Origin: Candidatus Poribacteria bacterium
GTDB lineage: Bacteria; Poribacteria; WGA-4E; WGA-3G
Assembly (NCBI GenBank): GCA_026702755.1
Contig: JAPPBX010000101.1
Coordinates: 1-55,927 of the forward strand
Length of the DNA stretch: 55,927 bases
Direction: 5' to 3'
Part shown: positions 14,480-49,626 of the stretch, piece after piece
How the letters are laid out: every line of letters starts with the position of its first letter
How positions within the stretch are numbered: the stretch's first letter is position 1
Translations under genes and position numbers: made by a program
The notes under the pieces: model-generated
What the model was told of the DNA's origin: nothing
Seen by the model: only the letters and a program-made list of their open reading frames with translations
Database searches by the model: none

Positions 14480-14536
14480 TAAGAAACTCAGTACTTAGTC
14501 TTGCGAGCGCGCAGACTTAACGAGGAGGATGAGTTA

Positions 14537-17500: not shown

Positions 17501-20500
17501 TTAACTGTTACAGTTGACCATCGCTCACCACATCCTGCCGCCGTTATGGTGCAGTACATGGATGCAAGTGGCGCATGGCAAAACATCGGCGAACTTGATC
17601 TCGCAGGAACCCAAACAGGTTCAACATTGGAGATCGGTTGGAATGTCTCTGATTTTGAAGCATTGTTGGGTGGCAATGAGATGAGCCAGGTAATGGTTCG
17701 CGCTGTGGCAACCAACGCACTGCAAATTACAGATGTCAATCCGATGCAGGGTGTCATCAACTTAGATGCCGGTATTTGTCCGTTAGATCCTGAGGTTGTT
17801 GGAATTACGGTGGCTCCAGTTCCCCCGACTGTTACTAACCCGGATAGTGGTGGACGACAAGGCACACTCATGCTTACTGCGTATACACCGAGCCGGACTT
17901 CTACTCCTATTAGTTCTGTCCGCTTGGCTGCCACGGGTCCTCAAGCTGCTGAATGGGTGATTGAAAGCAGTGAAACTGCTGAGCACATTGAGGGTCAAGA
18001 ACTTGCTGACCTCCTTGGTGATCTCGTCAACACTGTGGGACCTGACAAACCAGTTGTCTCTGTCAATACTACCTACCAGAAATGGGTGGCTACTGTGGAT
18101 ACCACAACTTTGGCAGATACTATCACCGCAGATAGTCCAGCAGCACGAGATGCATCTAAAGATGAAAACCAGTATGTGGTAGTGGGGTATGCGAACACCA
18201 ACGGAACCGAAGTTCCACCGATTCCTGGTGTTGAGGCAAGATTCTCTGTTGACAATGTTGACGATGTCGCGCCACTCGGTCCGACAAACGTCAGTGTAAC
18301 AAGCGTTGAGGCGACCGATAGCATCTTTGAAGACGCTGGCGATGGCAGCTACACCGTTGGTGGTCTCGTTGATAAGTATGACGATGCTGTCAGTTCACCT
18401 ATGGCTACCCTTACCATTGAGCCGATGGCTGAACGGAAAACCTACGCATCTGTCATGTTACAAACGGACGCTGAAGGCATTGTTATTGGTGACGTAACCG
18501 AAACCGCTGAAGGCAGTGGCATTTTCATGGTAACTATTGATGTCGGCACGCTTGCTGACGGTGAGACGTACCTGGAAAACGGAACTTATATGTTCCATGC
18601 CCTCGCTTATGACGGATCTCCTGACGGACCTGATGAACAGTACGGCAATATCCAAGAGGATATGTCCGCAACGGATGGAACCAGAATCTCGGTGACTGTT
18701 GCAAACACTCGCCGACCGGCTCCTCAAGTTCTGGCGTTTGCTGTCGGTGATCCAGCACAGACGAACCCGGATAGTGGTGCACCTCAGGGAACCATAGCAC
18801 TTTACGGCTATTCACCTGAAATCACTTCGGCACCTACCACCTCTCTGATGTTTGAAGTTAAACGCAAGAACGACACAGAGTGGACTCAGGTCGGCACTGC
18901 CTCCGAAAGTAGTCCAGTTACTACAGTTGACGATGCAAAACTCGCAGCAGCAGACGTAGCGGACGTAGCAGATGTTGCCGGAGGGAATGTTGTAAAATCT
19001 GACACCTATCAAAGGTGGATGATTGAGGTAGATACAACAACTCTTGAGGATAGCATTACTGCTGATAGTCCTGGTGCGCGTGATGCCTCCAAGGATGACA
19101 ATCAGTACATGGTGCGTGCGACTGCAAGTGCCGCAGCTGATGGAAGCGAGACGCTCTCTGCTGACGATGTCACTGCGATGTTCTCTGTTGACAATGTTGA
19201 CGATGTCGCGCCACTCGGTCCGACAAACGTTAGTGTAACAGGTGTTGAGGCGACCGATAGTGTCTTTGAAACCGCTGAGGATGGCAGCTACACCGTTGGT
19301 GGTCTCGTTGATAAGTATGACGATGCTGTCAGTTCACCTGTGGCTACCTTCACCATTAAGCCAACAGCGGATAGAAAGACCTACAAATCTATCAGGTTCG
19401 TAACCGACATTGAGAACCTTGTTGTTGGCGACGCGACCGAGACAGCCGAAGGCAGTGGTATTTTCGAGGTAACTGTTGATGTCGGTACACTTGCTAACAG
19501 TGAAACATACTTGGAAAATGGAACTTATATGTTCTATGCCCTCGCCTTTGACGAGTTCGGCAACGAACAAGCCGATGACTCTGAAACGGATGGGTCGAAA
19601 ATCTCAGTGACAGTTGAAAACAGTTATCGACCAGCTCCCGAGATCTTCGCGATCACGACCGACCCCGCAGCACAGACAAATCCCGATAGCGGCGCACCGC
19701 AGGGAATCCTTGTACCTAACACGTACACCCTCGGTGAGAGGACCTCTCCACCTATCACTTCAGTGCGTGTTGAAGTTAAACGTCAAGATGCTGATGATTC
19801 TGAGTGGAAAGAGGTTGGTGTGACCACCGAAGGCACTGTTATTAGCGAGGAAGAATACCAAGAACTAAAGCAGAGCGATGCTGACTTCATCGCTGATTTT
19901 GTTGGTGTCGCAGCTGAAGCTGTCGTTGATGGTGAAGCAACCGCACCGATTCATAAACATCAAGCCTACCAAAAATGGTCGGTTAGCGTAGATACGGTAG
20001 CATTGGAATTAGAGGATACCATCACTGCGGATAGTCCCGCAGCGCGAGATGTAGCCCAAGATTCTAATCCGTATATCGTACGTGCAATCGCACTTTCCGC
20101 TGCAAACGAGAGTGAAACAGCAGCCCCCAGTGGTGTTCAATCAAGGTTCTCACTTGACAACGTTGACGATGTTGCACCGCTCGGACCGACAAATATTGTC
20201 GCTGTCACTCATGTTGCCGAAGGCGTTGACGCACAGCCCCCCATTGCAGCGAATGAAGATGGGAGTTATACGGTTGGTGGTATTGTTGATGAATCAGTAC
20301 CGTCACCAATGATTATGCTTACGGTTGAACCGACAGCTGAGCCGAAAACCTACGCGGCAGGTTCAGTAAGGTTGGTGCAAACCGATGTAGATGGCAACCA
20401 AATCACTGCCGATAGCGAACCGGGAGTTTTAGAAGCACCGACAGTCGATATCGGGATGCTTGCAAATGGAACCTATATGTTCCATGCGCTCGTTATTGAT

Positions 20501-22780
20501 GAATTCGGTAATGTGCAAGCCGATGATTCTGAAACTGATGGGTCGAGAATCACAGTGCATGTGCTGAACTTCCGAACCTCCGATATCAGCGATTTGGCGG
20601 TCATAGCTGTTGACGGTGTGGATGTTGCAGACGCACCTGCTGAACCGATCCCACTTCGCAATTCGGTCGCTGTAAGTTTCATGGTTGCTAACGGCTCATT
20701 AGCCGCAGACCACCTGAGTGGTGCTATTAACGGAAGCGCAGTTCCGAGCGAAAGTGCGGAAGATCCAGAAAATACCTTCTCACTTACGGTAATGGAACTT
20801 TCAGCACTGCCGGATGGTATGTATACACCGGATGGTGTCGTCACCCAATGGAACGGTTCAGTCCCGTTCTCGTTGGCAATGATTAACCTTGATAACACCG
20901 GTCCGATGATTACGATTGAGACTCCTTCAGAAGACCATACGGTGGATAGCTTGCCGACCGTTCATGCGACATATAATGACGGTGAAGGTAGCGGTCCAGA
21001 CAGCACTGGTAAGGAAGTCTTAGCTTGGGCAACGACGGAACTTGCCGATGGACCGACTGTTGGTTTGGTACGCACTCTGCCCGAACAAGGTAATCAAGAT
21101 ATTCCAGTCGAGCAGGCTGCCATTGAAACCGATGCAACAACACTGGTTTACACTCGTAATGACCAACTTGCCGGTGGCGCGTATAAAATAACCGTTAGCG
21201 TTGCTGATGTTCTCGGTAACATCGGTGAAGCCACACGCGAATTCGCTATCAGTGGTACAATACCTACGGTCGCTATTCAGTCACCTGCTGGTGGTCAAAC
21301 CGTTGAAGACGGTCGTCCGCTCATTAGCGGTGAATTCTCGGGTGCTGGCACTGTTGAGATAACCACATTTACCATTGACGGTACAGATGCTACACCAGAG
21401 GTAGATGGAAATCGGTTCTCTTACACGCCAGGATCAGATCTCAGTGGTGGATCGCACACGGTTGTTGTTGAAGTCACTGACGGCGATGGTAAAACGGCAC
21501 AGACATCTGCTACCTTTACGGTGAAGACGGATACAACGCCGCCAGTCATCTCTGCAGCGGCTCCATCTGGTGTCATCACGGGTGATAGTTGGGTAACGCT
21601 CTCAGCGGTTGTTACCGATGAGCAATCGAGCGTCGTAAGTGTGAAGTTCGGTATAAATGACAAACCGTTTCGCTCAGTACCACTTGCACAAATCGCTGCA
21701 GGACGAGTTGAAGTTGCTGATAGTTTCACAGCGGGAACGCACACCGTAAGAGTTGTTGCGATCAGCGAAGGTGGAACAACCGAACATTCTTGGACGTTCA
21801 CATTAGTCGTTGATAACGCTGCACCTGCAATCACCTCAATTACGCCGTCTGGAACTATCCGTGGCGGGCTCCCGGTCATCTCGGCAAGTGCCAGTGATGA
21901 ATCAGGTGTTGATGAAATGGTCATCACCTTGTGGGATAGCAACGGTAAAGAGGTGAAGGGGAAGACAGCAGATGATGGCGAAAGCGATGTTGAAGGTATC
22001 ACGCGTTTGGATTTCAATCCTGAAGCTCCGCTTGATGAAGGGACTTACACGATTGAGGTCCGTGCGACGGATACGATCGGCAACTCTGCCACAGCGAAGG
22101 GGAATTTCTCGATCGACTTTGATACTGCTGCGCCTGTCATCACGATGGCATCGCCACAGAATGAGGCACGCCTGATTGAACGTCGTCCGCAGATTTCGAT
22201 AACCTACGCGGATGCTGAATCCGGTGTAGATGTCGATTCTATCCGCTTCGTTTTCGACGATAAACTGATTAACCTCGCACCGAACCAGAAATCGGCATCA
22301 CAGGTTCTATACACCCCACCTGCCGATCTCGCTTTCGGGCAGCATACAGTTAAACTTGAAGTATCCGACATGGCGCATAAAGAGGGCAACGTTTCTGACA
22401 AGAACAGTGGGGCCCGTAAGGCAAACATGGCGGTTCACGAGTTTACATTCTTTGTTGAGAGTGAGGAAGGCCCAGTATTGGCATCGCGTCCGATTAACGC
22501 ACCCAATCCGTTCAAGGATAATACTCGTATTTCCTTCACACTGACTCGACAGTCCACGGTAAGTATTGTCATTTATGACATGACCTTCCGTCCGGTTCGA
22601 GTCCTTGTGGATAACGAAGTTTGGGATGCAGGCGAGTACGTTGGCAAAGGCGCAATCGGTTGGGATGGAACTACCACCGCTGGCGAAGATTTAGCTCGAG
22701 GCGTTTACTACTGTCAAATTATAGTGGCAGACGGTTTCGAGCCAGAGTACGCCATTCTCAAACTCGCACTGACGCGCTAA
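14537..22780 (+). CDS. Giant secreted Ig-repeat protein with FlgD-like C-terminal domain
   Basis: A 2,747-residue exported surface protein. A signal peptide spans about 1-28 (hydrophobic LVCFLIFTLCVFY, cut near VFGQ). An acidic Thr/Glu/Pro linker of 11 octapeptides (PSTDEETT type) covers residues 143-230. Residues about 230-1090 are unassigned; from about 1090 to 2013 there are three repeats of some 305-310 residues, each opening with NPDSG and containing FSxDNVDDVAPLGPTN. Residues about 2127-2640 hold at least five Ig/cadherin-like domains. The last 95 residues (NAPNPF..., VSIVIYDMTFRPVR, GWDGTTTAGEDLARGVYYCQI) form a FlgD-Ig/type IX-like C-terminal domain. ATG 14537 follows GAGGAGG at 14522-14528. 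A PorV-like gene follows. Adhesion or matrix function is inferred. Confidence 0.9.
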   Translation: MKKRTLVCFLIFTLCVFYTSIPNTVFGQEAEASLAVKVRDKYIDLFQRDDVKALLPEILNGLKTAEVDDIGGTIDLAISLINAGSAATLQTVAQGQGIILTDDHIALLSDPDVQALLQDEDVKTLLQDPVAIDELAGLLLPPPSTDEETTPSTDEETTPSTDEETTPSTDEETTPSTDEETTPSTDEETTPSTDEETTPSMDEETTPSTDEETIPSMDEETTPSTDEETTPPDEVIPPPVTAPMADPIPSIMPTNEALLGKSRLGGLSHNTISGRKFVQDLFMVATGQPIESLAGFGLTQDALVAMVVEEIAKLVGQEIPFPKNQILNLLADPDIRIFAGKLGETDLEQGLDPENFGNAITPLPLDLIYDDRMGDKTDPNRKYLTRNNLNLYVRVPLPASNIGGVTFQSSDGTLQAKGRLVGDPTVLGSELIRHTFRLEEALAATNLPAWPALEDSLEQLFEEVTLVHHYGLNGDPVEHPMDPIFGPNGVVWEAEIGVVPGSSYYYFHVTLADELTLEVLDREKLAALAKETLAGNLATISEVLSATKTYPIREWSMPDPRNLQLTNRGILEELFDDNFRAVFNTAVGSIITESLASGQLPSPQQLLNALGKHRWRLQNILLRNANRVTTEFEESFDPMLSSVFTIPKVNPEYGSLWVPETQFDNIPDGNYFLGAVVHDVNGNPLDLMQGEFTVDTSAPEADVEISSGVNTVGYENDEGVYVATSLEPGAATLTVTGVPGLKPSDRVAQAEGYLVYQIIGLNEDGTPYLGDPSLQRPNTWMPLTPEATLLASTIWDQTIAQLVGQNVLPEEIEFGGVTVPTQTLTLNTVLAFLGTPLGLGFLQDNLNPSLEDLGELLNMHLQLDADVAQSLVDVLGVTVDIVNAVPITYGEPPNGNSLMMLAQLGEDVLAGDYGIRAMGIDTLFNVSSHTAPTHLRIVYSSDPAHQDRASVTFVVVGDCNLDGDMDDLFESGPVGNVTIFNNTTENVVLTVTVDHRSPHPAAVMVQYMDASGAWQNIGELDLAGTQTGSTLEIGWNVSDFEALLGGNEMSQVMVRAVATNALQITDVNPMQGVINLDAGICPLDPEVVGITVAPVPPTVTNPDSGGRQGTLMLTAYTPSRTSTPISSVRLAATGPQAAEWVIESSETAEHIEGQELADLLGDLVNTVGPDKPVVSVNTTYQKWVATVDTTTLADTITADSPAARDASKDENQYVVVGYANTNGTEVPPIPGVEARFSVDNVDDVAPLGPTNVSVTSVEATDSIFEDAGDGSYTVGGLVDKYDDAVSSPMATLTIEPMAERKTYASVMLQTDAEGIVIGDVTETAEGSGIFMVTIDVGTLADGETYLENGTYMFHALAYDGSPDGPDEQYGNIQEDMSATDGTRISVTVANTRRPAPQVLAFAVGDPAQTNPDSGAPQGTIALYGYSPEITSAPTTSLMFEVKRKNDTEWTQVGTASESSPVTTVDDAKLAAADVADVADVAGGNVVKSDTYQRWMIEVDTTTLEDSITADSPGARDASKDDNQYMVRATASAAADGSETLSADDVTAMFSVDNVDDVAPLGPTNVSVTGVEATDSVFETAEDGSYTVGGLVDKYDDAVSSPVATFTIKPTADRKTYKSIRFVTDIENLVVGDATETAEGSGIFEVTVDVGTLANSETYLENGTYMFYALAFDEFGNEQADDSETDGSKISVTVENSYRPAPEIFAITTDPAAQTNPDSGAPQGILVPNTYTLGERTSPPITSVRVEVKRQDADDSEWKEVGVTTEGTVISEEEYQELKQSDADFIADFVGVAAEAVVDGEATAPIHKHQAYQKWSVSVDTVALELEDTITADSPAARDVAQDSNPYIVRAIALSAANESETAAPSGVQSRFSLDNVDDVAPLGPTNIVAVTHVAEGVDAQPPIAANEDGSYTVGGIVDESVPSPMIMLTVEPTAEPKTYAAGSVRLVQTDVDGNQITADSEPGVLEAPTVDIGMLANGTYMFHALVIDEFGNVQADDSETDGSRITVHVLNFRTSDISDLAVIAVDGVDVADAPAEPIPLRNSVAVSFMVANGSLAADHLSGAINGSAVPSESAEDPENTFSLTVMELSALPDGMYTPDGVVTQWNGSVPFSLAMINLDNTGPMITIETPSEDHTVDSLPTVHATYNDGEGSGPDSTGKEVLAWATTELADGPTVGLVRTLPEQGNQDIPVEQAAIETDATTLVYTRNDQLAGGAYKITVSVADVLGNIGEATREFAISGTIPTVAIQSPAGGQTVEDGRPLISGEFSGAGTVEITTFTIDGTDATPEVDGNRFSYTPGSDLSGGSHTVVVEVTDGDGKTAQTSATFTVKTDTTPPVISAAAPSGVITGDSWVTLSAVVTDEQSSVVSVKFGINDKPFRSVPLAQIAAGRVEVADSFTAGTHTVRVVAISEGGTTEHSWTFTLVVDNAAPAITSITPSGTIRGGLPVISASASDESGVDEMVITLWDSNGKEVKGKTADDGESDVEGITRLDFNPEAPLDEGTYTIEVRATDTIGNSATAKGNFSIDFDTAAPVITMASPQNEARLIERRPQISITYADAESGVDVDSIRFVFDDKLINLAPNQKSASQVLYTPPADLAFGQHTVKLEVSDMAHKEGNVSDKNSGARKANMAVHEFTFFVESEEGPVLASRPINAPNPFKDNTRISFTLTRQSTVSIVIYDMTFRPVRVLVDNEVWDAGEYVGKGAIGWDGTTTAGEDLARGVYYCQIIVADGFEPEYAILKLALTR
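14963..15226 (+). repeat. 11 x 24-bp in-frame tandem repeat (PSTDEETT)
   Basis: Eleven consecutive 24-bp units encode PS[TM]DEET[TI]. At DNA level two codon versions alternate, giving a 48-bp higher-order unit: one begins CCGTCAACCGATGAAGAG, the other CCATCAACGGATGAGGAA. Units 8 to 11 carry substitutions (ACG to ATG, ACT to ATT). All are multiples of three, so changes in copy number keep the frame. Confidence 0.97.
17806..20575 (+). repeat. Three ~0.92-kb internal repeats in the giant gene
   Basis: Unit starts are marked by NPDSG codons at about 17837, 18764 and 19679. Units 1 and 2 share identical stretches, for example 18242-18291 equals 19181-19230 (50 bp) and the 60 bp starting at 18341 equals that at 19280, all with an exact 939-bp offset. 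Unit 3 is diverged at DNA level but keeps the protein pattern. Confidence 0.88.
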
Positions 22781-30730: not shown

Positions 30731-33460
30731 ATGACGCTCCGTAAAATCCACATATTTTTGATTCTTATTCTCCTTTTTGTCATCGGTGGATGCGCGATTT
30801 TTCCGAAAAGTCAGCCTGCTCCACCAGTAGTCGATCCGCTGGTCGAGCGGAACCGTGAGTGGCGAGAGCAGGTTGAGACTGGTAACAACGAGTTACAACA
30901 GGGAAATCTACGAGGAGCTCTTACGGCTTACAAAGCTGCTGTTGCAATTCGTCCGGATTCCAGTGATGTACAAAGCAAAATCGCAGAGATATATTTCCAG
31001 CTTGAAGAGTACGAAAACGCACGCAATGCATTCATAACATTTTTAGTACTGGAGCCGAACAATATCACGGCTCTGAATTACGCTGGATACATCTCTGAAA
31101 AATTAGGGGACTACGCAGCAGCCGCCGAATACTATGAGCGAGTCCTTGGTGTTTCGGTGGATAACCTCTACGCCTTGAATCATCTCGGTTTAGTTTACAA
31201 GCAGCTACAACGTTTCGATCAGGCACTTGAGGTGCTCCAAAGAGCACTGTCGCTTGATCCGAGATGTGAACGCCCTGAAAGCGAAAATTTGCACAATTAT
31301 TTGGGGTTAATCTACTTGGAGCGCGGTGAGATTGGGGAGGCTATTGCAGAGTTCCGAGAATCAACTCGATTATTTCCAACCGATGTTTGGGCGAGAGAAC
31401 AACTCGCTGCAATCTATGAAGACCAACAGCGTTACTTTGAGGCGCAGCTTCAATACAAACAACTCTTAGACATTGCTCCAGACAATCTGCTCGCCTTGAC
31501 ACGGCTTCAAACACTCGCCCAACAGAATTTTAGTTCAACGCAGATTGTTGATGTCCAGCCTGTTACCCTCCTGCATCCAGACGTTGAGCATATCATCGCG
31601 AACGCGCCGGACGCAAACGATTATCCTGACGCTGATACCCTTGTTCTATTTAACCATTTCAGTCACGATATTTTGCCGACAGGCCAGTCGCGCTATACGA
31701 CACATCAAGTCGTTAAAATTCTTACCGAAAGAGGCATCCAAAAATATGGGGATATTGCCATCCCTTACCAACCCGCTGCGCAAAATATAAGTGTTAACAT
31801 AGCGAGAACAATGACGGCAGACGGCAGGGTGCTGCAACCGCCTGAAGAGGCATTTAATGACGTAACGCCCCCGGGGTTATTGGCACAAAACCTCTATTCC
31901 GACGCGATGTGGAAAGTGATTTCTATGGTGGGGCTTGCACCGGGAGTTTGCGTTGAATATCAGGTAACGCTTGAAGATAAACTGCCTGGCGGCGAGACAT
32001 GGATTACGGGGGGATACAATTTTCAGGCAACGGAGGCAACCCTTGAAACGAGTTATGCACTTCGGATACCTAAAACGTGGCACCTTCAGTGGAAGATTGC
32101 CAACGCGATGTCAGGCACAACGCCACAAAAACCTGAAGTGTCTTACACAGAAAATGATACCGTTGTCTATATCTGGAAATATGGCGAAACACCTGCGCTG
32201 ACAGCAGAAGAAGGTATGCCCCATATCAACGATGTCGTTCCACGCCTGCGTTATTCATCGATTGCAGACTGGAACAACGTTTACGCTTGGTATAAAGAGC
32301 TCGCGAAGGGGAGATACACACCGGATACTCACATTGAGGAAAAAGTCCAGCAGCTAACCAAAAATCTAACAACGGAAGCCGCGAAAATACGCGCCATCTA
32401 CCATTTTGTTGCCGCAAAAATTCGTTACGTGGGTATTGAACTCGGTCAGAGTGCTTACCAACCCTCACCTGCCATCGAAGTTTTTCAGATGCAATACGGC
32501 GACTGTAAAGACAAGACAACGCTTCTGATTTCAATGCTGGATCTCGTCGGCATCAAAGCCTATCCTGTTCTGATTAGTGTCTCACCATACGAACGCGTTG
32601 ATACGGAACTTCCATCACTCAATCAGTTTAATCACATGGTTGCTGCAATCCCGACAGCGGACAACACCTATATCTGGTTAGATCCCACCTCGTCAACTTG
32701 TAGTTACGGCGACCTGCCTTATAATGTACAAGGACGCATGGGATTTCTCATTACCGATACACATGGTGAGTTTGTGGAGACACCTATTTTCCCATCTGAA
32801 TCCAATAGGCTTGTAAGCGCAACAGATTTGACGCTGAACAACCAAGGCACCGTGGAGGGAACACTCCATATTCAAACAAGTGGGCAATATAACCTAAACA
32901 CCCGCTGGGCATACCAACAGATACAATCCGGTGCTTTGAAAGGTACTTTGGCGGCTGAACTCAGCGGGCAATTTCCGGGGATCCAGATAGAGTGGTATGA
33001 CATGTCTGACCTCAACGAGCTTAACGAACCCGTAGAAATCAGACTCGGTTTTCGTGTTGAGAATTACGCAACACCTTTGGAAAACAGTATGTTATTGCCC
33101 TTACCAATTGATGAGTTCGGGGAGTATGCTGAAGCGTTTGCTAAGGAGGAACGTATGTATTCGTTGGATTTCGGTTATCCAACGCAAATTGAAAAGACGG
33201 TTCGTATCCGCATTCCAGACGGATGGAAGGCTGCCGTGCCGGAAGATAGCCATCATACTATAGAAAGTGCGGAATTCACTCGGCAGTACCGACAGATTGA
33301 TAACATTCTCACTTACCAGTTAATATTTACTCTTAAGAACAGAATCCTACCAGCTGCTGCTTACGCTGAGGCGAAACCGTTTTTTACTGCGCTTGCGAGT
33401 GAGGATGGGAGCCACTTGCTGCTAAATACAAGTGGCTATAGTTCTATGTCCCGAAAATAA
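30731..33460 (+). CDS. TPR - DUF3857 - transglutaminase-like lipoprotein
   Basis: A 909-residue lipoprotein: signal peptide LILILLFVIGGC with the lipidated cysteine at C21. TPR repeats span about 45-260 (for example YYERVLGVSVDNLYALNHLG). A DUF3857-like beta domain covers about 280-470, then a transglutaminase/papain-like core with C592 (YGDCKDKTTLL), H635 (FNHMVAAI) and D651 (WLDPTSS) as the expected triad, and a C-terminal beta domain. The TPR/DUF3857/Tgm order is known from Bacteroidetes and Planctomycetes. The role is probably peptide-bond hydrolysis or crosslinking at the envelope. Ribosome-binding site GAAGGAG precedes ATG 30731. Confidence 0.9.
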   Translation: MTLRKIHIFLILILLFVIGGCAIFPKSQPAPPVVDPLVERNREWREQVETGNNELQQGNLRGALTAYKAAVAIRPDSSDVQSKIAEIYFQLEEYENARNAFITFLVLEPNNITALNYAGYISEKLGDYAAAAEYYERVLGVSVDNLYALNHLGLVYKQLQRFDQALEVLQRALSLDPRCERPESENLHNYLGLIYLERGEIGEAIAEFRESTRLFPTDVWAREQLAAIYEDQQRYFEAQLQYKQLLDIAPDNLLALTRLQTLAQQNFSSTQIVDVQPVTLLHPDVEHIIANAPDANDYPDADTLVLFNHFSHDILPTGQSRYTTHQVVKILTERGIQKYGDIAIPYQPAAQNISVNIARTMTADGRVLQPPEEAFNDVTPPGLLAQNLYSDAMWKVISMVGLAPGVCVEYQVTLEDKLPGGETWITGGYNFQATEATLETSYALRIPKTWHLQWKIANAMSGTTPQKPEVSYTENDTVVYIWKYGETPALTAEEGMPHINDVVPRLRYSSIADWNNVYAWYKELAKGRYTPDTHIEEKVQQLTKNLTTEAAKIRAIYHFVAAKIRYVGIELGQSAYQPSPAIEVFQMQYGDCKDKTTLLISMLDLVGIKAYPVLISVSPYERVDTELPSLNQFNHMVAAIPTADNTYIWLDPTSSTCSYGDLPYNVQGRMGFLITDTHGEFVETPIFPSESNRLVSATDLTLNNQGTVEGTLHIQTSGQYNLNTRWAYQQIQSGALKGTLAAELSGQFPGIQIEWYDMSDLNELNEPVEIRLGFRVENYATPLENSMLLPLPIDEFGEYAEAFAKEERMYSLDFGYPTQIEKTVRIRIPDGWKAAVPEDSHHTIESAEFTRQYRQIDNILTYQLIFTLKNRILPAAAYAEAKPFFTALASEDGSHLLLNTSGYSSMSRK

Positions 33461-42047: not shown

Positions 42048-43520
42048 TCACATGCAGCTGTGTCCATCCTGTTTAAATCTCTCCAGTAGTGTTGTCAACC
42101 GTTCCACGATCTCTGGATGCGTTTCCCATACATTGTTCGTTTCGCCCGGATCCTCATAGATTTGATACAGTTGTCCTGGAACATCCGGTTTGGGACCCCC
42201 ATCACGAGGTGGAGGCCAGCCACCTGAACCTTGCGTCCCTAAAATCAATTTCCATTCACCGTGTCGTATAGAGAAAACGCCGGTGCTGGAGTGATGCACG
42301 ATAGCCTCTCGCAAAGGATTCTCTATCTCTTCACCTAACAGCGCGGGTAAGATATTACAACTATCCTGCCCCGCATCGTCAGGAACTTCGGTGCCGACAA
42401 TAGCGGCGCACGTCGCCATCAGATCCGTGAGACAGGTTAGCGCGTCGGTTTCGGTATTCGGCGCAATGACACCGGGCCAGCGTGCAATTAATGGTTCGCG
42501 GTGTCCACCTTCCCATATATGCGCCTTGTAGCCACGCCAGTCACCACACGACTTGTGGTCATAGAGATGGTATGGCATCGGGCTATTGTCGTCTTGGATT
42601 CGGTCGCCGGGCAGTGCCCCGTTATCGCTCGTGACGAAGATGAGTGTTTCATCGGTTTTACCAGTGCGTTCTAAGGCATCCATTACTTTACCTACCATCC
42701 AATCGACAAGCCACACCAAATCGCCACGAGGACCGGCACTGCTCTTGCCGCGTGCAAAGTCTGGCACGACTGCTTCTGTACAAGGTTCGTGCGGTGCGGA
42801 GGGGGTCAGGTAAAGGAAGAAAGGGGCATCCGCATCGGCTTGTCCCTCAATATATTCAACCGCTTTCTGCGCTATAATAGGATCTGCGTCTTTATGCTCC
42901 CACCCTGGGGTCATCATTCCCGGACGGCTTGTGAACTCCGGCACCTCATGATAGACGCTTGGGACCTCGACAAACGTATCATTCTCAATGAAACCGTAAG
43001 GGGGTTGGCAGGTTGGGCAACCGGAATTTCCGTAAAAATAGTCGAAACCAATATCTACTGGACCACCGGTCAATGGTGCAGTGAAATTGATATGTTCCTC
43101 CAACTCGCGTCCTGCGTTCTGCCACGGCAGCGGCGCATTGAAATCGAAGTCGTATCCCGATACCGTCGAGAATCCGAGTCCCAAATGCCATTTACCGACG
43201 CATGCAGTGTTGTAACCCGCATCCTTCAGCAGTCCCGGAACTGTCAAGCGTTCAGGTTCAATAAGGGGAGGCTCATATCCGTAAAGCACGCCGTGTTTGA
43301 GACGACTTCGCCAGCAGTAGCGTCCAGTTAAGATCCCGTATCGTGTGGGTGTACAGACTGCGGAGGGGGAGTGCGCATCGGTGAAACGAATCCCTTCCTG
43401 TGCGAGTTTATCCATGTTTGGGGTGGGAATCTTTGAATCGGGGTTATAGCAGCCGACATCACCGTATCCCATATCGTCTGCCATGATAAAGACAATGTTT
43501 GGAGAGGTATGTGTATCCAT
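42048..43520 (-). CDS. Sulfatase, arylsulfatase A-like
   Basis: A 490-residue type I sulfatase with motif C56-T-P-T-R60 (the threonine variant), formylglycine at C56. It begins NIVFIMADDMGYGDVGCYNPD, quoted here as its metal-binding ADDMGYGD, and has FVTSDNGALPGDR and the C-terminal EHPEI. GRYCWRSRLKHGVLYGYEPPLI is typical of the GALNS/ARSA branch. No signal peptide. The neighbouring PD-(D/E)XK-like gene is 31 nt downstream. Probably hydrolyses a sulfated sugar; target unknown. Confidence 0.92.
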   Translation of the reverse strand: MDTHTSPNIVFIMADDMGYGDVGCYNPDSKIPTPNMDKLAQEGIRFTDAHSPSAVCTPTRYGILTGRYCWRSRLKHGVLYGYEPPLIEPERLTVPGLLKDAGYNTACVGKWHLGLGFSTVSGYDFDFNAPLPWQNAGRELEEHINFTAPLTGGPVDIGFDYFYGNSGCPTCQPPYGFIENDTFVEVPSVYHEVPEFTSRPGMMTPGWEHKDADPIIAQKAVEYIEGQADADAPFFLYLTPSAPHEPCTEAVVPDFARGKSSAGPRGDLVWLVDWMVGKVMDALERTGKTDETLIFVTSDNGALPGDRIQDDNSPMPYHLYDHKSCGDWRGYKAHIWEGGHREPLIARWPGVIAPNTETDALTCLTDLMATCAAIVGTEVPDDAGQDSCNILPALLGEEIENPLREAIVHHSSTGVFSIRHGEWKLILGTQGSGGWPPPRDGGPKPDVPGQLYQIYEDPGETNNVWETHPEIVERLTTLLERFKQDGHSCM

Positions 43521-43559: not shown

Positions 43560-44675
43560 CTATTGTAATTTCGCCTTTAATTCTGCAAGGTCTTTGTCGA
43601 TTGATGCGTCTTCTGCGTAGCTTGCAAATTCACGATGCAGTTTCACGTCCTTGAATTCAACATCCACTTCAGAAGCGGCTTTCGCTAAAGCGGCAGCTTC
43701 AGTTGCGTTTTGCTCCACTTTCCTGAGAATCTCGAAAGCCTTGCTATCTTGGAGTTCAGTTAATGCTTGGCGCAGATGTTCGTGGGCATCAACATTTGTG
43801 TGCTGTGCGATGACCTGATCCCTTTTTCTTTCTGTTTCCTCAGTTTTCTGCTGAAGTGTTTCAAAGAGTGTTGTAAGATGTCCAACAATTCGTTTCTGTT
43901 CTTCCCATTGGGTTTTGTAGCTGCTCGCGAGTTGTCGATACTCGTTGCGTTGTGCCAAATCTTCGCGGGCAAGGTCTTCGCGTCCGGCTTGGATAGCGAT
44001 GATCGCCCGCTCCTCACACCGTTCGGCTTGCACAATGGCACCTTCGTGAGCGTTCTGAAACTGTTTTTCAATGCCAATAGAGGCATCAACCTTCTGTTTT
44101 GCTTCCGAAAACCGATTTGTGATTTCATGAATAACATCGCCTAATACCTTTTCCAGATCCGTTGTCGCGGCTTTGGTTTTAACCTCAGACTTGGTTTCAC
44201 CCTCAGTTACAAATTCAACAGGTTTTGTGTCTAATTTGACAACAACTGTCTTGGCAAGTTTATCGCCCATCCGTTGTTTCTCTTTTCCTGTTGCAAACAG
44301 CCAGTCAACGGGTTGGAATATACCGGCAAAACGACGAACGAAGGCATCTTTGAAATTCGCGGGTTCTCCATCCTCCAGACGAATTGTCTGTAGCGATAAA
44401 AGTCCCTTTCCAAACCCGCCTCCCTTCTTGAATCCATCCATGAAAAACAGACCATATAACCACAAAACACCACTTAGGATCGCTATACTTATTGATGTCG
44501 TATCCGATGCGTTACGAAAGTTAAAGCCATCAAAAATTGTAAATAGGACGGGACCGCTAAGAAGTAAAAGGACTTGACAGAAACCCAAGAGTCCTATGTC
44601 TAATAAGAATGCACCCAGTCGAGCCCATCGGGATGCCAACTTGAACTGTTTTCCTGCAACCTTAATAATGGACAT
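43560..44675 (-). CDS. RDD membrane domain - PspA/IM30 coiled-coil fusion protein (paralogue 4)
   Basis: A 371-residue protein and the most diverged of four neighbouring paralogues. The N-terminal about 150 residues form an RDD-type membrane domain with two long hydrophobic segments and GFGKGLLSLQTIRLEDGEP ... GDKLAKTVVVK. Residues about 180-371 match PspA/IM30/Vipp1: DLEKVLGDVIHEITNRFSEAK, then long heptads around REDLAREDLAQRNEYRQLASSYKTQWEEQ (residues REDLAREDLAQRNEYR). It ends ASIDKDLAELKAKLQ, like the end of PspA. ATG 44675 follows AAGGAG; the open frame extends upstream. PspA proteins are ESCRT-III relatives that bind and remodel membranes; here the amphipathic membrane helix seems to be replaced by a membrane domain. 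The role is inferred. Confidence 0.87.
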   Translation of the reverse strand: MSIIKVAGKQFKLASRWARLGAFLLDIGLLGFCQVLLLLSGPVLFTIFDGFNFRNASDTTSISIAILSGVLWLYGLFFMDGFKKGGGFGKGLLSLQTIRLEDGEPANFKDAFVRRFAGIFQPVDWLFATGKEKQRMGDKLAKTVVVKLDTKPVEFVTEGETKSEVKTKAATTDLEKVLGDVIHEITNRFSEAKQKVDASIGIEKQFQNAHEGAIVQAERCEERAIIAIQAGREDLAREDLAQRNEYRQLASSYKTQWEEQKRIVGHLTTLFETLQQKTEETERKRDQVIAQHTNVDAHEHLRQALTELQDSKAFEILRKVEQNATEAAALAKAASEVDVEFKDVKLHREFASYAEDASIDKDLAELKAKLQ

Positions 44676-44801
44676 CGTCAGAAACTCCTTGTTCTCGCCC
44701 GGATGGATCCGCCTAATATACATCGTGAATCTTTTTTCTCAAAAAGATTCCTCCGTGACAGCCACACTACTTTTCTGTGAGTGTAACGACGGAGTTCATG
44801 T

Positions 44802-45899
44802 CTACTGCAACTTCGCCTTTAATTCAGCGAGGTCTTTGTCAAGGGATGCTTCTTCAGCGTATCCCGCAAATTCACGCTCCAATTTCGTATCCTGATATGC
44901 CACATCCACTTCAGCCGCTGCTTTCGCCAAAGTAGCTGCTTCAGTCGCATCCTGCTCCATCTTCGCGAACGTTTCGAGTGCTTTACTGTCCTGAATTTCT
45001 TTCAGCATCTCTTGCAGATGCGCTTGGGCATCAACGTTTCTGTGTTTCGCTACAACGATAGTTTTTTGGCCTTCCGCTTCGACGGTTTTCTGCTGAAGAT
45101 GCTCAAGAAGGTTCTTGAGATCTCGGACGACCTGTTTCTGTTCTTCCCACTGTTTCTTGTATTGATCTGCTAACCGTCTATATTCATTTCGTTTTTCAAG
45201 GTCTTCACGCGCTAAATCCTCACGTTCCGCTTTAAGCGAAACAAGGGCGCGTTCTTGCCACTGTTCCGCTTGGACCACTGCGCCTTCATAAGCGTCCTGA
45301 AACTGTTTTTCAATGCCTACAGAGGCATCAACTTTTTGGCGCGCTTCTGCAAGTCTGTTTTTCATCTCAACGATAATACCCTCTAAAACTCTCTCTGGGT
45401 CTTCAGTTTCAGTCTCAGTTTGTTCTGGTTCCGGTTCATATTTCACAACAACCGTCTCCGCGAACTTATCTCCGAGGCGTTGCTGTTTTTTTCCAAGGAA
45501 CCAGAGTAAATCAAAGGGTTGTAAAAGACCGGCGAACCGGCGAATGAAAGCGTCTTTGAAAGTGCACGGTTTGCCATCTTTCAAACGGAGTACCTGTAAG
45601 GACAACAGTTTCTTCCCTATGCCCTGCCCCTTTCTGAAGCCATCCATAAAGAGCAAACCAAATATCCACAAGGCAGCACTGAACAGAGAGCCAAAAATAC
45701 TGAGTCCAAGACCAGCCAGTAATGACCTGGATACATCGAAAGGACCTTTAGGGAGAAATAGAAATGCTACAAACGATAAAAGAAGGGCAAAACCTGATTG
45801 CACAGCACCTAAAATCGCAATATCTATAAAGAGCGCGTATAGCCGTGTCATTCGGGATGCTAATTTGAATTTTTTACCTGCGATCTTAATAGACTTCAT
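44802..45899 (-). CDS. RDD membrane domain - PspA/IM30 fusion protein (paralogue 3)
   Basis: A 365-residue fusion. RDD domain about 1-155: MKSIKIAGKKFKLASRMTRL, hydrophobic segments at about 22-48 and 60-85, then GIGKKLLSLQVLRLKDGKPC and LGDKFAETVVVKY. PspA domain from about 166: EDPERVLEGIIVEMKNRLAEA, REDLAREDLEKRNEYRRLAD, and the end EASLDKDLAELKAKLQ. A MITE-like repeat lies in the 133-bp gap to the upstream paralogue. Closer to paralogues 1 and 2 than to 4. Confidence 0.88.
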   Translation of the reverse strand: MKSIKIAGKKFKLASRMTRLYALFIDIAILGAVQSGFALLLSFVAFLFLPKGPFDVSRSLLAGLGLSIFGSLFSAALWIFGLLFMDGFRKGQGIGKKLLSLQVLRLKDGKPCTFKDAFIRRFAGLLQPFDLLWFLGKKQQRLGDKFAETVVVKYEPEPEQTETETEDPERVLEGIIVEMKNRLAEARQKVDASVGIEKQFQDAYEGAVVQAEQWQERALVSLKAEREDLAREDLEKRNEYRRLADQYKKQWEEQKQVVRDLKNLLEHLQQKTVEAEGQKTIVVAKHRNVDAQAHLQEMLKEIQDSKALETFAKMEQDATEAATLAKAAAEVDVAYQDTKLEREFAGYAEEASLDKDLAELKAKLQ

Positions 45900-45910
45900 T
45901 TTATATTTTT

Positions 45911-46007
45911 AACCCAAGTTGCTACTAACAGATTTTGCACATTTCAAAACGTTTTTCAACTTCTTTTCGCACCCCAGAGGGGTGATATGTCTATAGAATT
46001 GCGTTAT
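45911..46007. repeat. MITE-like non-coding repeat, short copy
   Basis: Starts AACCCAAGTTGCTACTAACA and contains GCACATTTCA and CACCCCAGAGGGGTGATAT, ending TTGCGTTAT. It matches the element at 53031-53199 over most of its length but lacks about 70 bp before the right end. It lies inside the RDD-PspA array, between two genes. Confidence 0.82.
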
Positions 46008-46032
46008 TTTTACTACAAAACTCGGTGAACTT

Positions 46033-47121
46033 TTATTTTTGTAATTTTGTCTTTAATTCGGCGAGGTCTTTGTCAAGTGATGCTTCTTCAGCGTAACCCG
46101 CAAACTCACGCTCTAATTTCGTATCCTGATATGCCGCATCCACTTCAGCCGCTGCTTTTGCTAAAGTCGCCGCCTCAGTCGCATTCTGGCCCATTTTTAC
46201 AAGTGTTTCAAGTGCTTTACTGTCCTGAATTTCTTTCAGCATCTCACGTAGGTGTGCTTCGGCATTAACGTTCCTGTGTTTCGCTATGACAGAGGTTTTC
46301 TCACCTTCTGCCTCCATCATTTTCTGCTGAAAATGCTCAAGAAGGTTGCTAAGTTCTCGGACAATCTGTTTCTGTTCTTCCCACTGCTTTTTATGTTTGT
46401 CAGCTAACCGTCGGTATTCGTTTCGTTTTTCGATATCTTCGCGTGCCAGATCTTCACGTCCTGCTTTAAGCGCAATGAGTGCGCGCTCTTGCCACCGTTC
46501 TTCTTGAGCAATAGCACCTTCATAAGCATCTTGGAACTGCTTTTCAATGCCAATAGAGGCATCAACCTTCCCCCGCGCTTCTGAAAGCCGATCTTTCATT
46601 TCAACGATAGCATTTTCTAAGACTTTTTCTGGATCTTCGGTTTCGACTTCAGTCTGTTCCGGCTCATATCTGACCACAACCGTCTCAGCGAACTTATCCC
46701 CCATTCGCTGCCGTTTTTCTCCGAGTGTCCAGAGAAAATCCAATGGTTGAAAGATACCTGCTAATCGGCGAATAAAGGCATCCTTGAAAGAGCACGGTTT
46801 TCCGTCTTTCAATCGGAGCACTTGTAGGGACAGTAGTTTTTTGCCTATGCCTTGTCCCTTTCTAAACCCGTCTATGAAAAGTAAACCGAACGTCCATAAA
46901 GTTATATTAAAGAAAACAAAAGTCCCAGCGACGAACCCCTGCAAAGGACCTTGTGGTTGACTCCACATTGTTGGGGAAATAAGTTCTGCTATCAAGCGCA
47001 TAAGGCAGACTAAAATGATTTGGGCAACAGATAAGCAAGTGAAATCTATGAAGAGTGCATACAAACGCGCCATTCGGGATGCCAATTTGAATTTTTTACC
47101 TGCAATTTTAATGGACTTCAC
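46033..47121 (-). CDS. RDD membrane domain - PspA/IM30 fusion protein (paralogue 2)
   Basis: A 362-residue fusion. Membrane segments near residues 22-42 and 63-83; RDD signatures GIGKKLLSLQVLRLKDGKPC (91-110) and GDKFAETVVV (141-150). The PspA domain starts at DPEKVLENAIVEMKDRLSEA (163 onward) and ends SLDKDLAELKTKLQK. The start is set at GTG 47121 by alignment with MKSIKIAGK of the paralogues; a TTG at 47127 is in frame. It is 54 nt from paralogue 1 upstream. Confidence 0.87.
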   Translation of the reverse strand: MKSIKIAGKKFKLASRMARLYALFIDFTCLSVAQIILVCLMRLIAELISPTMWSQPQGPLQGFVAGTFVFFNITLWTFGLLFIDGFRKGQGIGKKLLSLQVLRLKDGKPCSFKDAFIRRLAGIFQPLDFLWTLGEKRQRMGDKFAETVVVRYEPEQTEVETEDPEKVLENAIVEMKDRLSEARGKVDASIGIEKQFQDAYEGAIAQEERWQERALIALKAGREDLAREDIEKRNEYRRLADKHKKQWEEQKQIVRELSNLLEHFQQKMMEAEGEKTSVIAKHRNVNAEAHLREMLKEIQDSKALETLVKMGQNATEAATLAKAAAEVDAAYQDTKLEREFAGYAEEASLDKDLAELKTKLQK

Positions 47122-47175
47122 TTTCAAATCCTATAAATCTTTTTGTGTTTGTGCGATACATATCTTGATGAACAT

Positions 47176-48348
47176 TTATTTTTGTAGTTTTGTTTTCAAT
47201 TCAGCGAGGTCTTTGTCAAGGGATGCTTCTTCAGCATAACCCGCGAACTCACGTTCTAATTTGGTATCCTGATATGCGACATCTACTGCAGCTGCGGCTT
47301 TCGCCAATGTGGATGCCTCTGTCGCGTCCTGCTCCATCTTTGTCAGCGTTTCAAACGCCTTAGTGTCTTGGACTTCTTTCAGCATCTCACGGAGATGGCT
47401 TTCGGCATCAATATTTCTGTGTTGTGCGACGACGGCTGCCTTTTTCCCTTCAGCTTCCATCATCTTCTGTTGAAGATGTTCAAGAAGGTTGCTGAGTGCT
47501 TGAACGACCTGTTTCTGTTCTTCCCACTGTGCTTTGTACTGTTCCGCTAACCGTCGGTACTCGTTTCGTTTTTCTAAGTCTTCACGTGCCAAATCTTCGC
47601 GTTCCGCTTTAAGAGAGATAATAGCACGTTCTTGCCACCGTTCTGCTTGGGCAACTGCACCTTCGTAAGCGTCTTGAAAATGTTTTTCAACGCCGACAGA
47701 GGCATCAACCTTCTCGCGCGCCTCTGAAAGTCGATTCGTCATTTCAGCAATGGCATACTCTAAAATCTTCTCAGGGTCTTCAGGCTCAGCTTCAATTTGC
47801 TCCAATTCTGGTTCAGACTTCACAACAACCGTCTCTGCTAACTTATCCCCCATCCGCTGTCGTCTTTTTCCAAACGTCCAGAAGGAATCCAGTGGTTGAA
47901 AGACGGCTGTGAGTCGGCGAATGAAAGAGTCCTTAAGCGTGCAGGGTTTTCCATCCTTCAATCGAAGTACTTGTAGTGACAGCAGTTTTTTGCCAATCCT
48001 TTGCCCATTTTTGAAGCCATCCATGAAAAATAAACCGATTGTCCATAGCGCGATACCGCCCAAGGCTACGGTCTCCAGATCGTTATACGCCCACGGTCCG
48101 AAAAGAAAAACGATAAGCAATTGGGTGACAACCAACGCACTTCTTGGTAGTTCAGTTTTGGGACCTAATATCCATAGTAATGCACTGAACAACCCTATCC
48201 GAATAGGACCAGAACCCACAGCGTCCAAAAGAAGTGCCAAAACCAATAGAATACCCGCTAAGAATGCTCCGTCTATGAAAAACGCGAACAACCGCGCGAA
48301 TCGGGATCCTAACGTAAATTCTTTGCCCGCAATTTTAATGGACTTCAT
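47176..48348 (-). CDS. RDD membrane domain - PspA/IM30 fusion protein (paralogue 1, first of array)
   Basis: A 390-residue fusion and the first gene of the array in transcription order. Its RDD domain is longer, with three to four hydrophobic segments before GQRIGKKLLSLQVLRLKDGKP. The PspA part opens DPEKILEYAIAEMTNRLSEA, carries REDLAREDLEKRNEYRRLAE, and ends SLDKDLAELKTKLQK. Cytoplasmic coiled coils on a membrane base would place an ESCRT-III-like module at the inner membrane. No phage-shock partner (PspB, PspC, PspF) or LiaRS-type genes are in the window. Confidence 0.88.
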   Translation of the reverse strand: MKSIKIAGKEFTLGSRFARLFAFFIDGAFLAGILLVLALLLDAVGSGPIRIGLFSALLWILGPKTELPRSALVVTQLLIVFLFGPWAYNDLETVALGGIALWTIGLFFMDGFKNGQRIGKKLLSLQVLRLKDGKPCTLKDSFIRRLTAVFQPLDSFWTFGKRRQRMGDKLAETVVVKSEPELEQIEAEPEDPEKILEYAIAEMTNRLSEAREKVDASVGVEKHFQDAYEGAVAQAERWQERAIISLKAEREDLAREDLEKRNEYRRLAEQYKAQWEEQKQVVQALSNLLEHLQQKMMEAEGKKAAVVAQHRNIDAESHLREMLKEVQDTKAFETLTKMEQDATEASTLAKAAAAVDVAYQDTKLEREFAGYAEEASLDKDLAELKTKLQK

Positions 48349-48537
48349 CCTGAAGAACCTCTGTGCTTCTTAGGGGAAACACCTCGTGTGTTATATTAGA
48401 CGGAAACAAACTCACGGCACTCTGCACCAAAGTGGGGAATGCAGTTAAACTTGCAAATCCGGTCGCGTTCTGTACATACTATAATAATAGAGTCTATAAG
48501 GATGAGAAAAGATAGTGAAATAGACACTGGAAACGAG

Positions 48538-48567: not shown

Positions 48568-49626
48568 TTACAAGGTCGGTACGGACACTGCGACTTCACG
48601 TCCACCAGCATTTGAGGAATCAATGACTCCCTGAATAATAACGTTCGTGAGCATCACACCGTAAGGATCGATCGGCGAGGGTTTCCCTTCGCGGACAGCG
48701 TCAATAAACGCTGTATCTTCCTCATGGAACACACTTACCGATTCAAACTCCGTGAACTCTTGGTCAAAAATTTCACCGTCTTTGTCGCCGTAGACGCGGA
48801 CGCCTTCTTGTGGTCCACGGACTTCGCCGATGCCGAGACGGAGTCCCGCTTTCTTACCGAGGAAAATCGTCCCACCGAGTGAATCCATATTCATGCACCA
48901 GCAGGTTTTGAATACCATGCGTGCACCGTTCTCAAAGACTACCCAACCGACACCGAAATCTTCAACCTCGGTCTCTTTAAGTGCAGGATTCCATGTATTG
49001 TGGAGGCTCAGGTAGTTAGAAGTAATACCAGAGACAGCGACAGGCTTGGGATGCCCCATCAGATAGAGGGCGGTGTCTAAAGCGTAAACGCCGATGTCCG
49101 CGGAGGCTCCTAAACCGGCTGTCGCTTTTCGGATGAAACTACCACCTGGATTCCCGCGTCGCCGGTCTGCAACCGTTTCGACATAGTAGATATCGCCAAG
49201 TGTGCCAGCGTCAACAATCTCTTTCGCTTTAACAACTTGTGGTGAATACCGGAGTTTCAAGCCGATCATGAGGATTTTATCGTTTTCTTTTGCAGCACGC
49301 CACATTGAAGCGGCAGCGTCCAAGGTCGCCTCCATCGGTTTCTCGCAAAAAACGTGTTTACCTGCGTTCAGGGAAGCGACGGTCGGTGCTGCATGCACAC
49401 CTGTCGGGGTACAGACGTACACCGCCTCAATCTCGTCCATTTTAAGCATTTCGTTGTAGTCAGTGAACGTCCGCTTGATGCCCCATTGCTCTTTCGCACG
49501 TTCAAGGTTTGCAGGGACGAGGTCGGCAGCAGCAATGATTTCGGCACCTTCGATGTCAGCCAGTGTTCGACAGTGTGCCCCGGAGATACCACCCGCCCCA
49601 ATCAAGCCTAATTTAACTGTTCTCAT
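48568..49626 (-). CDS. Gfo/Idh/MocA family oxidoreductase
   Basis: A 352-residue NAD(P)-dependent oxidoreductase, probably for a sugar or inositol-type substrate. N-terminal Rossmann GLIGAGGISGAHC, the catalytic EKP at 95-97 (VFCEKPMEAT) and the second catalytic segment ADIGVYALDTALYLMG are all present, so it looks active. It diverges from the zinc dehydrogenase and ThuA genes on the plus strand, which suggests one pathway. Confidence 0.92.
   Translation of the reverse strand: MRTVKLGLIGAGGISGAHCRTLADIEGAEIIAAADLVPANLERAKEQWGIKRTFTDYNEMLKMDEIEAVYVCTPTGVHAAPTVASLNAGKHVFCEKPMEATLDAAASMWRAAKENDKILMIGLKLRYSPQVVKAKEIVDAGTLGDIYYVETVADRRRGNPGGSFIRKATAGLGASADIGVYALDTALYLMGHPKPVAVSGITSNYLSLHNTWNPALKETEVEDFGVGWVVFENGARMVFKTCWCMNMDSLGGTIFLGKKAGLRLGIGEVRGPQEGVRVYGDKDGEIFDQEFTEFESVSVFHEEDTAFIDAVREGKPSPIDPYGVMLTNVIIQGVIDSSNAGGREVAVSVPTL

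Follow-up and report, generated by a model that had tools for sequence, protein, structure and literature searches.

We analysed a 55,927-nucleotide stretch of contig JAPPBX010000101.1 from a Candidatus Poribacteria bacterium (the window), in which four consecutive, complete open reading frames (ORFs) on the minus strand, 48348-43560, each encode an RDD membrane domain joined to a PspA/IM30-type domain. An earlier reading of the letters and translations alone (the sequence-only reading) had described four adjacent genes of this architecture, and all four proteins indeed pass the Pfam gathering or curated score, used here as the pass criterion, both for RDD (PF06271; E 5e-11 to 7e-13, 43-50 bits against a cut-off of 24.1) and for PspA_IM30 (PF04012; E 1e-16 to 2.7e-22, 62-80 bits against a cut-off of 33.9). 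The genes are named F1 to F4 by order of transcription:

47176-48348, minus strand: F1, the "first" paralogue, RDD-PspA fusion of 390 aa
47836-48306, minus strand: RDD domain of F1 (PF06271, aa 15-171, E 5.5e-11)
47188-47802, minus strand: PspA_IM30 domain of F1 (PF04012, E 1.8e-19)
46033-47127, minus strand: F2, a middle paralogue, RDD-PspA fusion of 364 aa with a TTG start
46687-47082 and 46045-46644, minus strand: RDD and PspA domains of F2
44802-45899, minus strand: F3, a middle paralogue, RDD-PspA fusion of 365 aa
45459-45860 and 44811-45413, minus strand: RDD and PspA domains of F3
43560-44723, minus strand: F4, the "last" paralogue, of an old lineage, RDD-PspA fusion of 387 aa
44250-44636 and 43569-44159, minus strand: RDD and PspA domains of F4

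The genes are separated by 48, 133, and 78 nt. F2 and F3 are 70% and 72% identical to F1, and F4 is 57% identical, in line with the expectation that paralogues 1-3 are close and the fourth diverged. When each gene was compared with its orthologue in the nearest genome, separately for the RDD and PspA halves, the ratio of nonsynonymous to synonymous substitution rates (dN/dS) was ~0.1, with a range of 0.05-0.13 for the PspA halves. F1-F4 are under purifying selection in both halves, and because the ratio is this low in each half we regard them as functional genes. The Pfam matches together with dN/dS rule out chance or mis-annotation as the source of the array.

Plain poribacterial PspA proteins carry a 22-residue amphipathic alpha0 helix (a sample sequence reads MSVFSRISTVFKANVNDALTKAEDPEKVL), and the unfused PspA proteins of sister Poribacteria have a typical alpha0 start (e.g., MSVFSRISTVFKANVNDALTKA) followed by EDPEKVL. 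In the fusions, a short acidic linker joins the GDKFAETVVVK end of the RDD domain to EDPEKVL, the start of alpha1. Comparison of the two kinds of junction indicates that alpha0 and nothing else was exchanged; in the sequence, the boundary between alpha0 and alpha1 is precisely where the RDD membrane domain takes over from alpha0, with alpha1-alpha5 retained. The fusions thus lack the alpha0 helix by which PspA/IM30 proteins are recognized, and the PspA_IM30 match starts at profile position 16-23 because this helix is missing, so the sequence-only reading was wrong to call the PspA domain full. It was right that a transmembrane anchor stands in place of the amphipathic N-terminal helix, as borne out by Pfam, the junction comparison, and an AlphaFold model.

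The AlphaFold model, of F3, was built from an alignment of 79 sequences. Its N-terminal part comprises strands, transmembrane helices at 16-48 and 56-83, and a small alpha/beta part, and is followed by a low-confidence linker (156-164) and a hairpin of alpha1 (168-223) and alpha2/3 (227-304) with predicted local distance difference test (pLDDT) scores mostly of 92-98. Foldseek returned 17 Protein Data Bank (PDB) matches below E 0.001 for this model, all to Vipp1 or PspA, confirming in the predicted structure the ESCRT-III hairpin that had been proposed. The best VIA-align match was likewise Vipp1 (Z 13.6 over 141 residues, root-mean-square deviation 2.0), with unrelated helical hairpins scoring ~11.5 or less.

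Two RDD transmembrane segments are clear by both hydropathy and model, and a third stretch appears as short helices. The RDD domain of F1 is longer, with an added hydrophobic hairpin (helices 47-64 and 69-83 in its model, at moderate confidence). Basic stretches in the sequence flank both transmembrane segments on the presumed cytoplasmic side. Since the count of membrane helices is even in both versions and the flanks are basic, we infer that the PspA part is cytoplasmic in F1- and F3-type fusions.

Over the 79 sequences, the RDD signature residues R19 and D144 (F3 numbering) are invariant and D26 is kept in at least 90%; the pair R120 and R121, ahead of the third hydrophobic stretch, is also invariant. 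Retention of these residues would suit a Na+/H+ antiporter or leak valve that the fused PspA coil gates or plugs under membrane stress, and an RDD protein of Halobacillus andaensis is a Na+(Li+,K+)/H+ antiporter (PMC5996927). However, the third transmembrane segment of the characterized RDD protein is represented only by short helices in the F3 model, the rebuilt loop of F1 with its extra hairpin fits an anchor better than a conserved transporter, and deletion or overexpression of the Bacillus subtilis RDD protein SppI left resistance to salt and alkaline pH unchanged (PMC7568657). We consider an antiporter or valve unlikely.

The slow ATPase of Synechocystis PspA needs R44, E126, and E179; mutants in these residues have 60-90% less activity (single mutants 60-70%) and still form rods (PMC11746142). 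Synechocystis PspA without alpha0 also still forms rods, which take up no lipid or membrane (PMC12358876). In Vipp1, the F197K/L200K substitution severely inhibits assembly (PMC8281802). With numbering as in Vipp1 and counts over 79 fusions, position 44 is R or K in 75, E126 is replaced by Q in 73, E179 is replaced by A in 71, and F197 is present in all 79. Judged by alignment, two of the three ATPase-linked residues (E126 and E179) are thus lost in the fusions. Of six PspA proteins from Poribacteria that are not fused, four retain E126 and five retain E179. On these comparisons the fusions appear to join two changes that are harmless to assembly in a relative with a conserved assembly residue, F197. 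Because alpha0-less and ATPase-mutant PspA still make rods, the fusions may be regarded as an anchored, assembly-competent, and ATPase-impaired scaffold, and by analogy they would be expected to assemble.

The substitutions at E126, E179, and L200 could instead mean that the PspA domain is a passive, non-polymerizing coiled-coil spacer whose paralogues are redundant and drift in number. Copy number does vary from 0 to 4, and broken array copies occur in genomes G029, G055, and G058. Against such a spacer stand the dN/dS values of the PspA halves, the invariant F197, the REDLARED stretch conserved across the fusion family, and the separation of the "last" from the upstream paralogues since before two genera split; the spacer seems improbable to us. 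In G029 (L054 8986-10067), two overlapping frames encode the RDD and PspA halves separately, either through a frameshift in the gene or through an assembly error.

To place the array in the phylum we used 85 Poribacteria genomes, of which 59 belong to one mostly sponge-derived family (f1) and 26 do not. The fusion occurs in 56 of the 59 family genomes and, among the 85, is restricted to them; the 26 others have at best PspA without RDD. All arrays examined share one syntenic site, with a GFO/IDH/MocA oxidoreductase on one side and a sulfatase on the other, and the paralogues there make up a single conserved unit. This occurrence and the shared site rule out a peculiarity of one genome. A scan of species genomes with the aligned fusions as query gave 50 loci, all from Candidatus or uncultured Poribacteria, and the genome of the window groups with these by both identity and kinship. 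Among arrays with both borders visible, 10 have one fusion gene, 26 have two, 14 have three, and 6 have four, in a tally over two overlapping collections that counts some genomes twice; the copy number is usually 1-3, and the four genes of the window are the upper end.

Two narrow peptide patterns, REDLARED and EFx[GSN]YAE[ED][AE], found no fusion outside Poribacteria in one genome each of 84,980 species. Profile searches of three overlapping genome samples (289, 386, and 391 genomes, partly Poribacteria and a fraction of known species) gave, among the matches listed, only PspA without RDD in the same match outside the family. Viral contigs held no match to the fusion, and plasmids held a single Nostoc PspA, matched just in its PspA part. 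It is possible that RDD-PspA fusions arose independently in other lineages, because the matches are partly listed and cover a fraction of species. No RDD gene adjoins plain pspA in sister lineages within stretches of up to ~7 kb either side; such a neighbour would have pointed to the origin of the fusion.

In a tree of PspA domains, the fusions split from their unfused relatives save for one very long-branched sequence of unsure placement. F4, the copy next to the sulfatase, falls in a supported lineage common to two genera, and F1-F3 fall in an upstream lineage that multiplied later. The stepwise duplication suggested by the sequence-only reading is therefore visible in the tree, with copy 4 an old lineage and copies 1-3 younger. 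In a sister family, genome G023 has two further, divergent PspA genes ~4 kb apart (L075, 6111-6770 and 10801-11526), both on long branches of the tree. Some related arrays have a small conserved protein of unknown family (~101-111 aa, cluster c14) between the middle and last fusion genes:

L044, L046, L047, L048, L049, and L052: cluster c14 small protein, not in the window

The borders of the site in the window are:

42048-43520, minus strand: sulfatase, 490 aa (PF00884, E 6.7e-49), 39 nt 3' of F4
48568-49626, minus strand: GFO/IDH/MocA oxidoreductase (PF01408, E 1e-26), the upstream border

The sulfatase is probably cotranscribed with F4 and has no signal peptide obvious by eye; the oxidoreductase probably does not belong to the array. 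At the threshold used, 58 of 59 family genomes have one copy of the sulfatase. In G031 and G037 the oxidoreductase directly abuts the sulfatase with no remnant of a fusion, and in G015, outside the family, both genes are present with unrelated genes in between. Since G031 and G037 are nested within the family on the sulfatase tree, as sisters to array-bearing relatives, loss of the array in these two is favoured, with moderate support, over late gain elsewhere.

The constancy of this neighbour raises an explanation in which the PspA coils tether the cotranscribed cytosolic sulfatase and its partners to the inner membrane. The same single-copy gene follows closely after the array, mostly at a distance of 33-44 nt in related arrays. 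Yet the locus persists without the array in two family genomes, sulfatase orthologues are present in two array-less relatives outside the family, and the promoter-like element of the array is common to genes unrelated to sulfatases. We give a sulfatase tether little probability.

This element lies upstream of the first gene:

48487-48515, minus strand: bipartite promoter-like element CTATCTTTT-N12-GACTCTAT, 138 nt upstream of F1

It is the sole match in the window, and 100 shuffles gave none. At a score of at least 16/18, the element is found within 260 nt upstream in 41 of 44 arrays and in 0 of 880 shuffles; in one of the three remaining arrays the element lies slightly farther than 260 nt upstream, and in another a transposase-like gene comes between element and array. 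Such a gene sits between element and first fusion gene at about 4354-6000 of L099, and also in L039. Both array-less sites lack the element. Across the 58 family genomes tested, CTATCYTTT-N10-13-GACTCTAT has 1-7 sites in each and a reversed control pattern has none; a slightly stricter pattern has no site in the 26 other Poribacteria. The CTATC to GACTC spacing of ~16 nt fits a sigma-factor promoter, and from these matches the array appears to have its own family-specific promoter-like element.

The commonest other gene behind the element encodes a conserved ~190-residue protein without a Pfam match, whose start is usually 32-41 nt past the element, as for a promoter. In G080 the gene after it encodes a Toastrack protein (373 aa; DUF4097 E 7.5e-10, LiaG E 2.7e-12), and in G028 the follower resembles the Toastrack gene by eye and has no family match. 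An extracytoplasmic function (ECF) sigma factor gene lies 157 nt past the element in G028 alone (L174 2629-3258, minus strand); it is a candidate autoregulated sigma factor, but we do not claim it as the master regulator, as its homologues in other genomes are without the element. Reverse transcriptase and/or Cas1 CRISPR adaptation genes were seen behind the element in at least three genomes, twice in tandem in one, and there are also runs of small proteins (~80-115 aa) that combine a coiled coil with one or two membrane helices. Their layout is like that of PspB on visual inspection alone, and Pfam gave no PspB match. These genes are located as follows:

L175 593-1162 (with 1470-2588 in the same entry), L176, L178, L179, and L180: ~190-residue protein (SNExxxQKEIRRILRLLE...)
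L167 (497-1885 and 2081-3073), L177, and L161: reverse transcriptase/Cas1 genes
L165 331-1776, L164, and L181: runs of small membrane coiled-coil proteins

A simple sigma-54 (PspF-type) promoter pattern is absent upstream of the array, and general sigma-70 and terminator scans were no better than shuffles. The sequence-only reading had held that the usual Psp and Lia regulators are absent. This stands for PspC, missing from all 58 family genomes with positive controls, and no PspB, PspF, or LiaRS was found among Pfam-scanned neighbours (whole genomes were not searched for them). Regulation is nevertheless not simply absent, as a family-specific element precedes the array.

Taken together, the sequence evidence suggests that F1-F4 could be inner-membrane-anchored PspA/ESCRT-III-like scaffolds that polymerize, are ATPase-impaired, and are driven by the element, a reading to which, as a whole, we give about an even chance. 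The two RDD transmembrane helices would keep both termini cytoplasmic and so hold the PspA part permanently on the inner membrane face, rather than have it recruited via alpha0. The alpha1-5 parts may then polymerize laterally into membrane-bound sheets or arcs, possibly of mixed paralogues, which would make the membrane stiffer or seal it but would not engulf it, since it is through alpha0 that PspA rods draw membrane in. Disassembly or remodelling would be independent of the weak PspA ATPase. Expression would start from CTATCYTTT-N10-13-GACTCTAT, probably via an alternative sigma factor or activator, as part of an envelope-stress response in which the element stands in for PspF/PspBC or LiaRS.

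Several observations weigh against this anchored scaffold. In 77 of 79 fusions, Y replaces L200, the residue that the published interface test mutated jointly with F197. The C-terminal part of the F3 model is poor (pLDDT 44-61), alpha4/5 (306-364) being of low confidence, and the predicted template modelling score of 0.36 makes the relative placement of the RDD and PspA domains meaningless. Nearly every family genome retains a divergent unfused PspA able to serve the classical role, and the array is absent from two otherwise intact loci and so is not essential to the family. The one sigma factor gene found under the element has homologues elsewhere that lack it, and the relatives are known from metagenome-assembled genomes only.

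The wider proposal of a bacterial ESCRT-III in which all subunits are covalently membrane-anchored, several paralogues form hetero-polymers as in eukaryotic ESCRT-III, the ATPase has been abandoned, and a dedicated family-specific promoter class, read by an alternative sigma factor or activator, drives the system along with a Toastrack/LiaG-type partner is one we regard as doubtful. The array bears on two debates, namely the role of alpha0 in membrane contact and shaping by PspA/Vipp1 and whether the weak ATPase matters. It amounts to a natural experiment, in which alpha0 has given way to a transmembrane anchor and two of three ATPase residues are gone, and in which purifying selection across a family still maintains the hairpin and an important interface residue. 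If the fusions still polymerize, a physiological scaffold would need neither alpha0 nor the ATPase, and the array of paralogues would be a bacterial case of a possible hetero-polymeric ESCRT-III. The promoter-like element provides a first entry point to a small regulon within a phylum known mainly through metagenomes.

Two other genes were noted elsewhere in the window, the first probably encoding a large secreted or surface protein:

14501-22780, plus strand: 2759-residue ORF with bacterial immunoglobulin-like domains and, near the C-terminus, a weak match to a secretion tail
30731-33460, plus strand: 909-residue protein with tetratricopeptide repeats, DUF3857, and a transglutaminase core

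The fusions share with PspA, Vipp1 (IM30), and LiaH the alpha1-alpha5 region with its long hairpin, EDPEKVL, a conserved E(D/N)LARE stretch, and F197 of interface 3, and their profile matches to the best solved Vipp1/PspA chains have E values of 1e-20 to 5e-23. Unlike those proteins they have no alpha0, carry an RDD anchor, have lost E126 and E179, and occur as 1-4 tandem paralogues; against the PspA equivalog TIGR02977 they score 49-71 bits, far below the cut-off of 242.95. As neither alpha0 nor the full set of ATPase residues is present, we file them as a PspA_IM30-domain variant, not as PspA itself, which may work like PspA. Like the RDD family (PF06271), they keep the R, D, D signature and the C-terminal GDKxAxTVVV motif, and they differ from it in the fused PspA domain, the shortened third transmembrane stretch, and the extra hydrophobic hairpin of the first paralogue.

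A PspA-domain effector is also the common feature of the Psp, Lia, and PspA-CesT/Tir-flotillin systems (Ravi et al. 2024, PMC11237479). Likeness to Lia extends to the Toastrack/LiaG-like gene behind another copy of the element in one genome, and likeness to PspA-CesT/Tir to the CesT_Tir_1 gene that adjoins unfused poribacterial PspA in sister lineages. In contrast to Psp and Lia, the fusion family is without PspC, and its membrane part is supplied in cis, not encoded separately. The same survey found that over 98% of PspA homologues vary little in architecture, gave tandem PspA, NlpC/P60, and PspAA as rare fusions (<2%) with RDD unmentioned, and attributed adjacent cyanobacterial PspA/Vipp1 paralogues to tandem duplication (PMC11237479). 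A literature search combining RDD with PspA, or Poribacteria with phage shock, likewise found no description of the array, as the sequence-only reading had supposed, with subscription papers largely outside its coverage. The array resembles the cyanobacterial neighbours in consisting of adjoining paralogous PspA-family genes, but those dyads or triads of PspA and Vipp1 have no RDD anchor. The RDD-PspA array thus adds a new architecture to a known superfamily, one that a bacterial family has retained and that has its own regulatory element.

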